From NCBI GenBank assembly GCA_025928535.1, contig JAICJJ010000037.1:1-11301 (forward strand): a stretch of 11,301 nucleotides of DNA, written 5' to 3'. The DNA is from Thermomicrobiales bacterium. Lineage in GTDB: Bacteria; Chloroflexota; Chloroflexia; Thermomicrobiales; UBA6265. The stretch's first letter is position 1; each line of letters opens with the position of its first letter. The position numbers and the translations under genes were made by a program. The notes beneath the pieces were generated by a model, which was not told where the DNA came from, made no database searches, and was given only the letters and a program-made list of their open reading frames with translations. Below are positions 460 to 9,783 of the stretch, in pieces.

Positions 460-2298
<1,839 letters not shown>

Positions 2299-4420: not shown

Positions 4421-4921
4421 CTATGCCGCAGCGCAGAAGCCGCTGTTGCAGGCGCCGGCCACGCCGCAGCATTCGTCGTTGCTCGAACACGCCATGCCGC
4501 TCGCCTTGCAGCAAACCGTCTGCTGACCATGCTTCCCCGACGAGGTTGCCGCGCAATAGCGGCCTTGGCCGCAGCAGTGATCCGTGTCGCTGCATTTTGC
4601 GCCAAGTTGCAGGCAGTTCGCGCCGGCGCCGGTGGAGTTGGCGCTTTGCGACTTGGAACCGCTGTGAGTTCCTTTTCCGCCGCTCGACCCATGATGATGT
4701 TTCTTCGATTTTCCTGAGTGATGATGGCCGCTCGAATTGGCCGCGGCCTGGTTGCCATTGCCGCCGGACGCCTGGCTGCCGTTGCCTTTGGCGGCCGCCT
4801 CATCAAGCGTCAAGCCGGTCAGAGCGGCGACCGCGCCGGTCGTGAGCAGGCGGACGGCTCCGCGCCGCGACGCGCCGTCGGCCAGGCGCTGCACGAATTG
4901 GTCAAACCCGCGATTCTCCAT
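4421..4921 (-). CDS. Small Tat-type secreted protein with two knottin-like cysteine modules
   Basis: The product has 166 residues in three parts. Residues 1-45 look like a Tat signal: a polar start, SRR (18-20), a hydrophobic stretch GAVRLLTTGAVAALTGL and a possible cleavage after DEAAA. Residues 46-100 are a low-complexity Gly/Ser/Asn/Lys/His linker with HHH at 66-68 and 75-77. Residues 103-163 hold all 12 cysteines, in two modules of spacing C-x6-C-x5-CC-x5-C-xn-C: Cys103,110,116,117,123,137 (n=13) and Cys138,145,151,152,158,163 (n=4). This spacing is that of inhibitor-cystine-knot (knottin) peptides. It suggests an exported disulfide-rich protein, but no function is known to me. The ATG has GGAG about 7 nt upstream. 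Small exported Cys-rich proteins with this N-terminus are common in Thermomicrobia-like Chloroflexota (from memory). It is probably a single-gene unit, ended by the hairpin at 4311-4342. Confidence 0.8.
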   Translation of the reverse strand: MENRGFDQFVQRLADGASRRGAVRLLTTGAVAALTGLTLDEAAAKGNGSQASGGNGNQAAANSSGHHHSGKSKKHHHGSSGGKGTHSGSKSQSANSTGAGANCLQLGAKCSDTDHCCGQGRYCAATSSGKHGQQTVCCKASGMACSSNDECCGVAGACNSGFCAAA

Positions 4922-5593: not shown

Positions 5594-6640
5594 TCAGCGC
5601 CCGCCGGTTCGTCGTGTCCGCGCCGCGGCGAGGCGAGCGATCAGGTCGAACAAGGCGTCGTCCGGCTGTCGGAGTCGGCCGCGTTTGAGGGCGCGGTCGT
5701 TGGCGAGCGCGGCCGTCAGTTTGGCGACCGGATCGGAGTTTGGGCGGCGACTCCGGACGACGCTTGCCATCCGCTGCGGATTGGGCAGCCCGAGGTCGCG
5801 GCCGATGTCCTCGGGACGGCGCGATCCGGCGAACGCGGCGATTGTCGCCAGTTCGACCTGACCCTGTATTTGGGCGGCGAGTTTCGCCGGTTCTTCGCCT
5901 GCCGCGAGCAGGTTGTCGAGGTCGCCGACGGCGCGGTCGAGATCGCCATTGGCGGCGGCGTCGATGAAGGCGAACAAATGGTCCTCAGGCAGGTCGAGCG
6001 TCATCGTCGCGACGTGCCGGACGGCGACCGGATCGGGATAGGCGGCGAGCACCAGTTTGTCGATTTCGTTGCGGAGCCGCTCCATGTCGGGCGGCCGGTC
6101 GTAGCGTGGATTGTTCGGTTTGGCGCGCCATGTCTGGGGAAACAGCGAATCGGCCAACAGTTCGGCCGCCGGCCGCTCGATGTCGCCGCCGGCGTCTTTC
6201 GCCATCGTTGCGATCGCGCTGAGCAAAGCGGCGCCGCGCGGCGGCTCGGAGCCGATCACCTCGGCATGGGGCGGCAACGCCTTCCTGATCGCGGCCGGCA
6301 CGGCGCCAAGCGTCGGCTCGAGCAGGAGGAGCAAATTGTCCGGCGCGACCGCGGCGAAGAGCGGGCCGAGATCGATCGCCGCCTTGCCACGTGGTTGCGG
6401 CCGGTCCGTTTCGCCGTCGTCGCTCGCGCCGCGGCCCGCGCGGGCGAGGAGGCCGTCGACCACGATCGCGCGGCGGCCGAAAAATCCGGCGCTGCCGACC
6501 ATCGCGGCGAGTTGCGCCACGTTCGCCTCGCGCCCATCGAGCCGCGTGGTGTTGTCGCCGCCCGGGTCATGGTCGTCGGCGCGCAGGGCGGCCTGCCGGC
6601 GCGCCAGCGCGGCGTCCGGCCCGAGAACGACGAGGATCAC
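5594..6640 (-). CDS. holA: DNA polymerase III delta subunit (clamp-loader)
   Basis: From a GTG at 6640 the product has 348 residues, the normal HolA length. The N-terminus MILVVLGPDAALARRQAALRA is the degenerate Walker-like start of delta, followed by TRLDG and then FFGRRAIVVDGLL (about residues 53-65), the usual 'FFggrRlVvve' segment of domain I. The middle has MERLRNEIDKLVLAAY, and the C-terminal collar domain has LPEDHLFAFIDAAANGDLDRAVGDLDNLLAAGEEPAKLAAQIQGQV. Delta opens the beta clamp within the delta/tau/delta-prime clamp loader. The open frame runs on upstream to 7168, but that part crosses the 6S RNA candidate and shows no homology I recognise, so GTG 6640 is preferred. GAGG lies 6 nt before it. 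A better AAGGAG (6672-6667) instead serves a 5-codon ATG ORF (6654 to 6637) whose TGA overlaps the GTG, possibly a coupling leader. Confidence 0.9.
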   Translation of the reverse strand: MILVVLGPDAALARRQAALRADDHDPGGDNTTRLDGREANVAQLAAMVGSAGFFGRRAIVVDGLLARAGRGASDDGETDRPQPRGKAAIDLGPLFAAVAPDNLLLLLEPTLGAVPAAIRKALPPHAEVIGSEPPRGAALLSAIATMAKDAGGDIERPAAELLADSLFPQTWRAKPNNPRYDRPPDMERLRNEIDKLVLAAYPDPVAVRHVATMTLDLPEDHLFAFIDAAANGDLDRAVGDLDNLLAAGEEPAKLAAQIQGQVELATIAAFAGSRRPEDIGRDLGLPNPQRMASVVRSRRPNSDPVAKLTAALANDRALKRGRLRQPDDALFDLIARLAAARTRRTGGR

Positions 6641-6684
6641 GACGCGCCTCGCATATCGACCGCGGGCTCCTTCGGAAATCGTTG

Positions 6685-6850
6685 GGGATCGACCGATCCC
6701 GCCTGTGCCGTGTGCAACGGAGCCTTGAACCTGCTTTCGCAGGTGGGCGCCCCGCATTCGCGCGGCGCACCGCGCGGTTTGGGGCTCCCGACTCGTTTCT
6801 GTTGGCTCAAGACCGCGTAAAACATCACGAACACCGCAGGATCGGCCGGG
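6685..6850 (-). ncRNA. ssrS: 6S RNA (regulator of sigma70-type RNA polymerase holoenzyme)
   Basis: The region folds as a 6S-like rod. A 13-bp closing stem pairs 6848-6836 with 6702-6690 (two G-U). GUGUU-c-GUG (6834-6826) then pairs with CACGGCAC (6712-6705). GAGCC (6808-6804) pairs with GGCUC (6724-6720) at the edge of a central bubble. The 3' side of the bubble holds a hairpin with a GAAA loop (6744-6729), and the apical arm pairs GGG-a-GCCCC (6789-6781) with 6753-6745, with an inner 6-bp hairpin (6775-6760). Sequence landmarks shared with E. coli 6S RNA, recalled from memory, are UGUUCG near the 5' end, UUGAGCC/CUGAGCC before the bubble, and the CACCU-hairpin-GGUUCAAGG and CGGCA segments on the 3' side. 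Four G-U pairs would become A-C mismatches on the plus strand, fixing the strand. Length is about 165 nt. 6S RNA mimics an open promoter and sequesters housekeeping holoenzyme. The exact ends are estimated. Confidence 0.8.
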
Positions 6851-6855
6851 CCTGG

Positions 6856-6885
6856 AGCGTAGCATCCCGCAACGCGCCGCGACAA
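6856..6885 (-). promoter_or_regulatory. Promoter of the 6S RNA (and possibly holA)
   Basis: On the minus strand TTGTCG (6885-6880) is followed, after 18 bp, by TACGCT (6861-6856), which is preceded by TGC (extended -10). The start would fall near 6850-6848, exactly where the closing stem of the 6S fold begins. That agreement between promoter and fold supports both calls. Confidence 0.55.
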
Positions 6886-6925
6886 CGTTGCGAGCGCCGG
6901 TTCGCCGCCGGACGGCCCGCGAGGG

Positions 6926-6931
6926 TACGAT
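6926..6931 (+). promoter_or_regulatory. Possible fabF -10 box
   Basis: TACGAT sits 40 bp upstream of the fabF ATG, giving a leader of about 34 nt. No good -35 is present at 16-18 bp, so this is a weak call. The divergent 6S promoter lies about 40 bp to the left. Confidence 0.25.
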
Positions 6932-6971
6932 GATCGGCGCATGGAACCGCAGTTTTGGAGGAACGCACGAC

Positions 6972-8225
6972 ATGGCGCTCAGGCCGGAACAACGGGTCGT
7001 GGTGACCGGCGTCGGCATCGTTAGTCCGGTCGGCGCGACCCGGGAAGCGACCTGGGACGCCATCCGGAACGGGCGATCCGGCGTCGCGCCGATGACCCGC
7101 ATTGACACCGCCGGCCTGGCGACGACGTTCGCCGGCGAGGTGACCGATTTCGATCCGACCGCGATCATGGGGCGGAAAGACGCGCGCCGGGTGGACCGCT
7201 ACACGCAGTTCGCGGTGGCGGCCGCGCTCGAATCGCTCGCCCACGCCGGTTTCACCATCGACGCGGCGAACGCTGATCGGGTCGGGGTGCTCGTCGGCAC
7301 GGGGATGGGCGGCATTGAAACGATCGAGAACGGCGCGCAAACGCTCTTCACGTCGGGACCATCGCGCATCAGTCCATTTTTCGTGCCGATGTTTCTCCCG
7401 AACATGGCGTCGGGCACGGTCGCGATCACGACCGGAGCGAAAGGCCCGAATTTCAGTCCGACGTCGGCCTGCGCCGCCTCGGCGCATGCGTTGGGCGAAG
7501 CGGCCGAGATGATCCGCCGCGGTTGGGCCGACGTGATGCTCGCCGGCGGGGCAGAAGCGCCGCTGGCGCGCTTGAGCGTCGCCGGCTTCAACGCGATGGG
7601 CGCGCTATCGACGCGCAATGACGATCCAATTGCGGCCAGCCGACCGTTCGACGCCGAGCGGGACGGATTCGTGATGGGCGAAGGCGGCGCGATGCTTGTC
7701 CTGGAGTCGTTGCCCCACGCGCTGCGTCGCGACGCGCCGATCATCGCCGAATTGACCGGCTACGCGACCACCGACGACGCAAATCACATGGTGCAGCCGG
7801 CTCCGGGCGGCGCCGGGGCTGCGGCCGCGATGGAATTGGCGTTGGCCAGCGCGGGACTGGAGCCGGAGCGGATCGGCTACATCAATGCCCACGGCACCTC
7901 GACGCAGTTGAACGAAAAACTCGAAACAGAGGCGATGAAACGCGCGTTCGGCGAAGCCGCCTGGCGGACAGCGATCAGTTCGACGAAGTCGATGACCGGC
8001 CATTTGCTCGGCGCGGCCGGGGCGCTCGAAGCGGGTATCGGGCTTCTCGCGCTGCGCGACGGCTTCTTGCCGCCGACGATCAACCAGCAGGTTCCCGATC
8101 CCGATTGCGATCTCGACTACATTCCAAACGAGGGCCGATCCGCGCGGATCGATCATGTGATGAGCAATTCGATGGGGTTCGGCGGACACAATGTTTCGCT
8201 GATCTTTTCGCGGTTATTTGAGTAA
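6972..8225 (+). CDS. fabF: Beta-ketoacyl-ACP synthase II
   Basis: The product has 417 residues, typical of FabF. It condenses acyl-ACP with malonyl-ACP in fatty acid elongation in the cytoplasm. The thiolase-fold triad is intact: nucleophile Cys167 in TSACAASAHA, His307 in NAHGTSTQLNE and His344 in STKSMTGHLLGA, with the conserved Lys339. Cys-to-His and His-to-His spacings match E. coli FabF (163/303/340). The N-terminal VVVTGVGIVSPVG and C-terminal SNSMGFGGHNVSLIF are also standard. The intact Cys rules out a chain-length factor. The chosen ATG is preceded by GGAGG (6957-6961) at 10 nt; an upstream in-frame start would add 28 residues without homology. It is isolated here, without acpP, fabD or fabG beside it, and is followed by a repeat-rich convergent gap. 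Confidence 0.96.
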   Translation: MALRPEQRVVVTGVGIVSPVGATREATWDAIRNGRSGVAPMTRIDTAGLATTFAGEVTDFDPTAIMGRKDARRVDRYTQFAVAAALESLAHAGFTIDAANADRVGVLVGTGMGGIETIENGAQTLFTSGPSRISPFFVPMFLPNMASGTVAITTGAKGPNFSPTSACAASAHALGEAAEMIRRGWADVMLAGGAEAPLARLSVAGFNAMGALSTRNDDPIAASRPFDAERDGFVMGEGGAMLVLESLPHALRRDAPIIAELTGYATTDDANHMVQPAPGGAGAAAAMELALASAGLEPERIGYINAHGTSTQLNEKLETEAMKRAFGEAAWRTAISSTKSMTGHLLGAAGALEAGIGLLALRDGFLPPTINQQVPDPDCDLDYIPNEGRSARIDHVMSNSMGFGGHNVSLIFSRLFE

Positions 8226-8613: not shown

Positions 8614-9783
8614 CTATTCGAGATACCCCCGAAGATTTCGGCTGTAACTTGGATGGCGCAACTTGCGGAGCGCTTTCGCCTCGATCTGGCGGATGCGCTC
8701 GCGGGTGATGCCGAACTCGCGGCCGACTTCTTCGAGGGTGCGGAAGCGGCCGTCTTCGAGCCCGAACCGCAAGACGATGATCTTGCGCTCCCGCTCGGTC
8801 AATTTGCTCAAGGCGTCGGAAATTTGCGACTTGAGGAGTTCCTGCGACGCCAGTTCGATCGGCTGCGGCATCGTCTCGTCTTCGATGAAGTCGCCGAGGA
8901 AGGCGTCGCCATCTTGCCCGACCGGCGCTTCGAGCGAAATCGGATGGCGCGAGACGTCGAGCACCTGCCGCACCTTGTCGTCCGGCACGTCCATCGCCCG
9001 CGCGATTTCTTCCTGCGTCGGCTCGCGTTCGAGAATCTGCTGGAGGCGGTGGCCGGTCTTTTTCACCCGATTGATCGTTTCGCCGACGTGGACCGGCAGA
9101 CGAATCGTCCGGCTTTGATCCGAGATCGCGCGGGTGATCGCTTGCCGGATCCACCAGGTGGCGTAGGTGCTGAATTTGAACCCACGGGTGTAGTCGAACT
9201 TGTCGGTCGCCTTCATCAAGCCGATGTTTCCTTCCTGAATCAGATCGAGGAAGGAAAGCCCGCGGCCGACATACTTTTTGGCGACGGATACGACCAGCCG
9301 CAAGTTGGCCTGAATCAGATGGGCGCGGGCGGCTTCGCCGTCGAGGCGGTCCGCTTCGTAGGTGACGCGCATTTCGGCCGCCAGCCCAATTTCGACGAGG
9401 TGGGCTTCGGCGAGCTTTCCGCGCTCCATCCGCTTCGCCAGCCAGACCTCTTCCGCCATCGTCAGCAGGTCGGTCTCGCCGATCTCCTGCAAATAGAGAC
9501 GGACCGAATCGCCGACGCCGGAGGAGAGGTCTTCGGCCGCGATCTGGCGCTCCAGCCCGCGTTCCACCGGAGGGTGATCGACGCGATGCTCGCGCACGGG
9601 CTCGTCGATCGGGGGCGGCGCGGCCGGAGCCTGCTCGAGCACCTCGATGCCTTCGGCGACCAGCGACGAATAGAACTCGTCGAGGCGATCGACCTGCTCT
9701 TCGATGTTGGGAAACGCCGCGATGATGTCGTCGGCGAGGATATACCCCTGGTCCTTGCCTCGGGAGATCAGGCTCGTAACCAT
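8614..9783 (-). CDS. sigA: Primary RNA polymerase sigma factor (RpoD/SigA)
   Basis: The product has 389 residues, a group 1 sigma70 of the short gram-positive type without the large non-conserved insert. Domains in order are: region 1.1-like (residues 4-50, [20 protein letters not shown]...GIEVLE); a Pro-rich linker; region 1.2 (92-118, [11 protein letters not shown]); region 2 (155-232) with [33 protein letters not shown] and the -10 recognition segment [17 protein letters not shown]; region 3 (233-310); and region 4 (325-380) with the -35 helix-turn-helix [31 protein letters not shown]. Region 1.1 and the completeness of all regions argue for the essential housekeeping sigma rather than a group 2 paralogue. 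The ATG has AAGGTGG about 11 nt upstream. The leader carries a terminator-like structure at 9858-9888. It is divergent from yebC and ends at a strong hairpin. Confidence 0.95.

Follow-up and report, generated by a model that had tools for sequence, protein, structure and literature searches.

6S RNA is a bacterial small RNA that holds RNA polymerase in check. For its refolding on release, the available part of one account (PMC8876501) gives a collapse helix, deduced for B. subtilis 6S-1 by structure probing and with mutants and for A. aeolicus as well, and a hairpin used by E. coli. 6S genes are also known from Chloroflexi, for which the accessible part of PMC7726162 cites Wehner et al. (2014), a report on the same phylum and the same RNA as the present one; PMC11431127, in the portion available, is silent on 6S in Chloroflexi. 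There is no single 6S neighbourhood for all bacteria, ygfA being among the frequent neighbours in the accessible part of PMC9130861. Within the literature covered, outside which most subscription papers lie, searches for 6S together with Chloroflexi, Chloroflexus, Chloroflexota or genus names found no study in this lineage, nor did we find a comparative study of the collapse helix; we claim no priority.

The window considered here, a stretch of 11,301 nucleotides from a Thermomicrobiales bacterium, carries on its minus strand a locus that we take, with a probability of about 0.96, to be the host's 6S RNA gene (ssrS). As a 6S gene it is ordinary and to be expected in a little-studied lineage of a phylum from which 6S has already been reported; what the analysis adds is a link to holA in each class locus examined, together with covariation in support of a collapse helix that accompanies a lengthening hairpin. 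A cmscan search of 4227 Rfam families matched RF00013 (6S) to positions 6692-6845 of the minus strand with 73 bits (gathering score 46.4, E 3e-13), the alignment covering model positions 1-187 of 187, and none of the other nine Rfam matches listed for the window reached its own gathering score. This is the one RF00013 match in the host genome, and no second 6S gene was found by that model in an assembly of 3.39 Mb in 646 contigs that is 64% complete. The strand is set by R1, a model that we built from the 30 best-scoring loci, the window among these training sequences: it gives 162.6 bits on the minus strand and 45.7 on the plus strand, and the fold energies (-84.1 minus, -72.6 plus) agree. 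An RNA from the plus strand is ruled out by these strand scores and energies, and a coding reading was set aside because the overlapping 101-amino-acid frame at 6637-6942 has no Pfam match, whereas the RNA evidence is positive. By analogy with its family, the RNA would imitate an open promoter and so hold the housekeeping RNA polymerase.

E. coli ssrS itself scores 139.8 bits with RF00013, roughly twice as much as the window, R1 finds no match in the E. coli ssrS stretch, and a plain alignment of the two RNAs is poor. The sequence-only reading had nevertheless recognized E. coli landmarks here, and it was right as far as the Rfam model and short segments go (UGUUCG, UGAGCC, CACCU, GGUUCAAGG and CGGCA are common to both), though the plain alignment does not bring them out. 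Like ssrS, the window RNA has a closing stem, a helix P2 and the UGAGCC template, with the CACCU and GGUUCAAGG segments; it is 29 nt shorter, mostly in the apical arm, and its downstream gene is holA where E. coli has fau.

The fold of 6685-6850 on the minus strand has an energy of -91.4 kcal/mol, where shuffled sequences average -67.5 +/- 4.0 (z -5.97, 0 of 200 as low). It contains the elements of the 6S-like rod originally drawn by hand: a 13-bp closing stem, a central bubble, a 3'-side hairpin with a GAAA (GNRA) cap and an apical arm. All RNA features below are on the minus strand. From the Rfam pairs and pair counts, the closing stem occupies 6828-6844 (5' strand) and 6694-6710 (3' strand), and helix P2 pairs 6804-6813 (GUCUUGAGCC) with 6722-6731 (GGUUCAAGGC). 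The hairpin of the 3' central bubble (ACCUGC-GAAA-GCAGGU) lies at 6729-6744, as seen in both the free and the blocked folds described below, and the apical arm (GGGAGCCCC ... GGGGCGCCC) spans 6745-6789 according to the fold and the pair counts. The matched segment is 65% G+C and its complementary strand also folds well, as a chance G+C-rich palindrome would, yet the odds of such an accident are vanishingly small given the depth of the fold, the E value, the covariation and a conserved position in 44 loci; we regard the chance reading as refuted by the RF00013 match and the covariation.

That covariation was assessed by mapping the Rfam pairs onto the window and counting them on a sequence-only MAFFT alignment (A2) of 44 sequences, 43 of them distinct rows. 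Standard pairs fill 84.3% of cells, compared with 38.9-46.0% in controls in which the structure was slid, and both sides have changed in 141 cells (40-81 in the slid controls), so that the compensatory changes proposed as a check on the structure are present in its relatives. The number of pairs with changes on both sides (26 of 39 for the real structure, 17-24 for the slid ones) is a measure that discriminates poorly. None of 500 shuffles reached the real structure on any of five measures. P2 is paired in 97.0% of cells, and one of its pairs changes from U-A to C-G in four sequences of family f2 (L108, L113, L125 and L127). The long rod of closing stem, large central bubble and apical arm is thus kept by covariation, except that the tip of the arm is poorly preserved (helix 6, 37.5%); one closing-stem pair, a G-G in the window, is also weak. 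Most of the near-invariant columns belong to the pRNA template, P2, a GGG/CCC helix and the 3'-bubble hairpin.

The 5' end of the RNA is preceded by a promoter-like site, TTGTCG-N18-TACGCT with an extended -10, at 6885-6856, which ends 10 nt before model position 1 and bears out the earlier proposal of a promoter at the 5' end of the closing stem. Its -35-like TTGTCG (6880-6885), with similar sites in relatives, is separated by an 18-nt spacer from the extended -10 (6856-6864), made up of TG (6864-6863), C and TACGCT (6861-6856). In a scan that favoured TG, the best site close to the corresponding position was TGN-TA in 27 of 30 loci, one of them the window. At the level of sequence, then, the 6S gene appears to have its own promoter, and by family it would be transcribed from a sigma-70-type promoter of its own. 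Were transcription to start about 7 nt past the -10, the first nucleotide would be near 6849; with the Rfam bounds of 6692-6845, this makes the 6685-6850 proposed in the sequence-only reading a fair estimate of the extent. At the 3' end of the window RNA a GGGAUC-GGUC-GAUCCC hairpin is possible, but since no U run follows it we do not claim an intrinsic terminator. In two relatives (L018 and L023), inspection by eye shows an alternative partner for GGTGGGG, the closing stem's 3' strand: a CCCCACC with TTTTT after it. The terminator-like hairpin that these can form would be in competition with the closing stem.

Judged by position, the predicted pRNA template is 6801-6814, beside P2, with the pRNA starting opposite 6801, a C in the place of E. 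coli U44; the predicted 14-mer is GUUGGCUCAAGACC and its predicted 5' end GUUGGCUCAAG. A pyrimidine stands at the predicted start in 43 of 44 sequences and is missing in one, and the C of the window corresponds to C40 of B. subtilis in the available part of PMC8876501. By analogy with the family, the return of nucleotides would let the polymerase copy a pRNA from the 5' central bubble, starting opposite 6801, and be released. The free fold of the window RNA has an intact P2 and a 3-bp 3'-bubble hairpin, and when the 14 nt of the pRNA region are blocked the hairpin reaches 6 bp and a second helix, GAGUC:GGCUC, appears. Of 44 sequences, 37 form a longer hairpin under the block and seven one of equal length; without a block it has at least 5 bp in six of the 44, and P2 is missing from two of the 44 free folds (L016 and L022). 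We suggest that the pRNA would displace P2 and that the 3' strand of P2, once free, would be captured at both its ends: at the inner one by the 3'-bubble hairpin, which lengthens from 3 to 6 bp, and at the outer one by pairing with the distal 5' bubble in a collapse helix. We lean towards such a double capture in this clade, with the timing of the collapse helix taken from the modelled folds.

In this respect the window RNA shares features with each of the described systems. As in E. coli, its 3'-bubble hairpin competes with P2, but it grows only to 6 bp where the E. coli hairpin reaches 9, and the same block that yields a predicted collapse helix in the window gives E. coli the 9-bp hairpin and none of that helix. 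The window RNA therefore does not show the E. coli pattern, in which a 9-bp 3'-bubble hairpin forms only on P2 opening; the principle is similar, with a shorter helix that is partly formed beforehand. As in B. subtilis, in the accessible part of PMC8876501, a small 3'-bubble hairpin is already in the free RNA, and its predicted collapse helix, like those of B. subtilis 6S-1 and A. aeolicus, is formed by pairing of the distal 5' bubble with the 3' strand of P2. Two features go beyond what that part of PMC8876501 describes for B. subtilis and A. aeolicus: in the modelled folds the window hairpin also lengthens at the cost of P2, and covariation across several families of the class supports the collapse helix.

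In the window, the blocked fold and the permutation of strands described below place the collapse helix between GAGUC of the distal 5' central bubble (6790-6794) and GGCUC, which overlaps the 3' strand of P2 (6720-6724). The helix is exclusive with P2 and needs it open, because it crosses P2 and would make a pseudoknot if both formed. A helix of at least 4 bp was predicted in one of 44 sequences without a block, and in 20, 33 and 34 of them with 9, 12 and 14 nt blocked. Since its register shifts between families, we permuted duplex energies rather than counting columns: for each sequence we excised both strands and compared the energy of their duplex with that obtained when strands were exchanged between sequences. 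The strands were cut from 52 of 58 sequences, six (L132-L136 and L139) being left out for want of the searched core. Over 37 genus representatives the native energy was -6.87, compared with -4.70 +/- 0.31 after permutation (0 of 10000 as low); with two miscut rows (L137 and L020) set aside, the 35 remaining gave -6.69 kcal/mol and -4.26 +/- 0.34, respectively (0 of 2000 as low). P2, as a positive control, gave -14.55 against -12.71 (0 of 2000 as low). When the partner window was shifted, a signal appeared only at offsets -5, 0 and +5 of the 12 tried, and when one strand was reversed it was gone (384 of 2000 as low). Poor pairing was seen at two f7 loci (+1.1 and -1.2 kcal/mol) and five f3 g31 loci (-1.1 to -3.3).

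A simpler account would have the polymerase released in the E. coli manner only, by the 3'-bubble hairpin, with the collapse helix a by-product of relatedness. The hairpin is indeed nearly invariant and attains 5 bp or more in 43 of 44 folds whether 9, 12 or 14 nt are blocked, the collapse helix is absent from 10 of the 44 single-sequence folds with 14 nt blocked, and its signal is weak when the 20 representatives inside the window's family are taken by themselves (48 of 2000 permuted sets as low). We nonetheless consider release by the hairpin alone unlikely, because over eight families the native strands pair better than permuted ones (-6.24 against -3.89 kcal/mol), because none of 2000 permutations was as low among the 15 representatives outside the window's family, and because different sequences make the helix: GAGUC:GGCUC in the window becomes GAGUC:GACUC in L010, GAACC:GGUUC in L029, CUAGUUUU:GAAACUAG in L113 and GUUUCGA:UCGAAAC in L128. 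With a cruder cut, 10 genus representatives from other classes of the phylum gave no signal (-4.14 against -3.98, 669 of 2000 as low). For that test 24 of the 29 loci L070-L098 were given, four of the 24 could not be cut, the bubble strand was fixed at 16 nt, and L095, which looks miscut, was kept among the 10. We take the covariation as supporting evidence, drawn from sequence comparison by a permutation that leaves some relatedness in place, for a collapse helix in the class alongside the hairpin. The related genomes thus suggest that a 6S refolding step has been preserved by evolution. Covariation across the families of the class would be evidence, independent of probing and mutants, for selection on the alternative pairing, and it shows exactly which base pairs to mutate.

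The genes around the locus were named with NCBIfam as lepA, murJ, rpsT (S20), holA, fabF, an RpoD-type sigma factor, yebC and ruvC. Directly downstream on the same strand is holA (5594-6640, minus), for the DNA polymerase III delta subunit, and fabF (6972-8225, plus) is the divergent neighbour. With the in-frame GTG at 6640 taken as the holA start, 51 nt separate it from the 3' end of the 6S RNA. A 524-codon frame in phase with holA (5594-7168) spans the 6S locus, so the earlier remark that annotation based on open reading frames would miss the gene is sound, although annotation that uses Rfam should call it. FabF relatives named Thermomicrobiales, Chloroflexia or Chloroflexi are 64-72% identical to the window protein (one is 54%), and the other loci listed, among them Cohnella and Streptomyces, reach at most 50%, which places the host in or near Thermomicrobiales, Chloroflexota.

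The holA arrangement is conserved. In the order we examined 44 loci (30 plus 11 with RF00013 matches and three found by R1), and in all 44 holA follows in the same orientation, no more than about 300 nt away; fabF was detected within the examined flank at 24 of 30 loci. Five other families of the class supplied 14 more loci, and at all 14 the next long frame is also HolA: ten of ten exceed the TIGR01128 cut-off and the other four have both Pfam delta-subunit domains; L082 was left out of this downstream-frame comparison. Among the 29 loci L070-L098, the window HolA matches two by tblastn, both of the same class, and no HolA was matched at the 27 RF00013 loci from other classes of the phylum, a search that a distant HolA could escape; inspection of nine of those 27 by eye saw no HolA-like downstream frame. 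The link in 44 order loci and 14 from other families lends weight to weak 6S matches, and it points to lineages in which the expected position appears to lack a 6S gene.

Such a constant neighbour raises the question of whether the structure is instead a cis-acting leader of holA, an attenuator or structured 5' untranslated region, rather than a free 6S RNA. The short distance, the common strand and the presence of holA at every order locus are what a leader would predict, as is a TACACT box that stands 33-35 nt before the holA match in four of five g22 loci lacking 6S, as if the promoter had stayed. We judge a leader in place of a 6S RNA to be highly improbable: the match to the 6S model is full-length and includes the bubble, the pRNA template and the hairpin, the near-invariant columns fall mostly in the pRNA template, P2, the GGG/CCC helix and the hairpin, and the 27 loci of other classes carry an RF00013 match without a HolA match by tblastn, which a distant HolA could escape. 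The locus could, however, be both 6S RNA and leader. Because the gap to holA is only 51 nt, we think that holA is probably read from the 6S promoter as well. More tentatively, and on slightly less than even odds, we entertain the idea that the holA-linked 6S RNAs of this Chloroflexota class combine dual-capture release (the inner end of the P2 strand on the E. coli principle, the outer end on that of B. subtilis), selection on the refolded, pRNA-bound state and a 6S promoter that drives holA and so would tie a clamp-loader gene to 6S transcription.

With Infernal filters stricter than usual, RF00013 matched at least 41 of 61 genomes of the order, the host included, at least 28 of them over the cut-off; with the same stricter filters and part of the candidates scored, it matched at least 58 of 101 genomes of the class and at least 77 of 300 drawn from the phylum. 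R1, run on 20 RF00013-negative genomes and the host, found 6S in three of the 20; these belong to family f2, and in all of them the match adjoins holA. Since their scores (41.2-49.7 bits) are about that of the window's own palindromic antisense strand (45.7), these three matches rest on the holA neighbour. Neither model found a 6S match in 17 of the 61 order genomes. Four of these are incomplete genomes of the window's family in which the absence says little, since three have no holA match and the fourth has holA at contig base 12, and another three (G037, G057 and G058) have no holA match. In the remaining ten, from genera g22, g29 and g32 (loci L104-L107, L110-L112 and L114-L116), holA and its upstream DNA were examined and neither RF00013 nor R1 found a 6S; the gene may have been lost or moved, or may have diverged too far for either model. 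The TACACT box in g22 looks as if 6S had been lost while the promoter was kept, and in g29 a leader remains, by eye, between a TAGAAT box and holA. In a member of another Chloroflexota class (G139), two RF00013 matches, at G139:C4:337188-337363 and G139:C5:648395-648571, score 51.8 and 33.5 bits and are possibly two 6S genes.

Three further observations concern the window itself. A 166-amino-acid frame at 4421-4921 (minus) has, by eye, a twin-arginine-like N terminus and a Cys-rich C terminus and no NCBIfam or Pfam match. RF02746 (AsrC) gives a sub-threshold match at 2210-2265 (plus; 30.9 bits, gathering score 111), opposite the start of lepA. AsrC covers the rseC region, which adjoins lepA in enterobacteria, and the match is therefore probably a similarity to lepA coding sequence. 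Finally, the RpoD-type sigma factor at 8614-9783 (minus), close to the 6S gene, scores 366.6 bits to RpoD_Cterm, and a better match to that model (396.7 bits) lies on another contig of the assembly (G000:C438).
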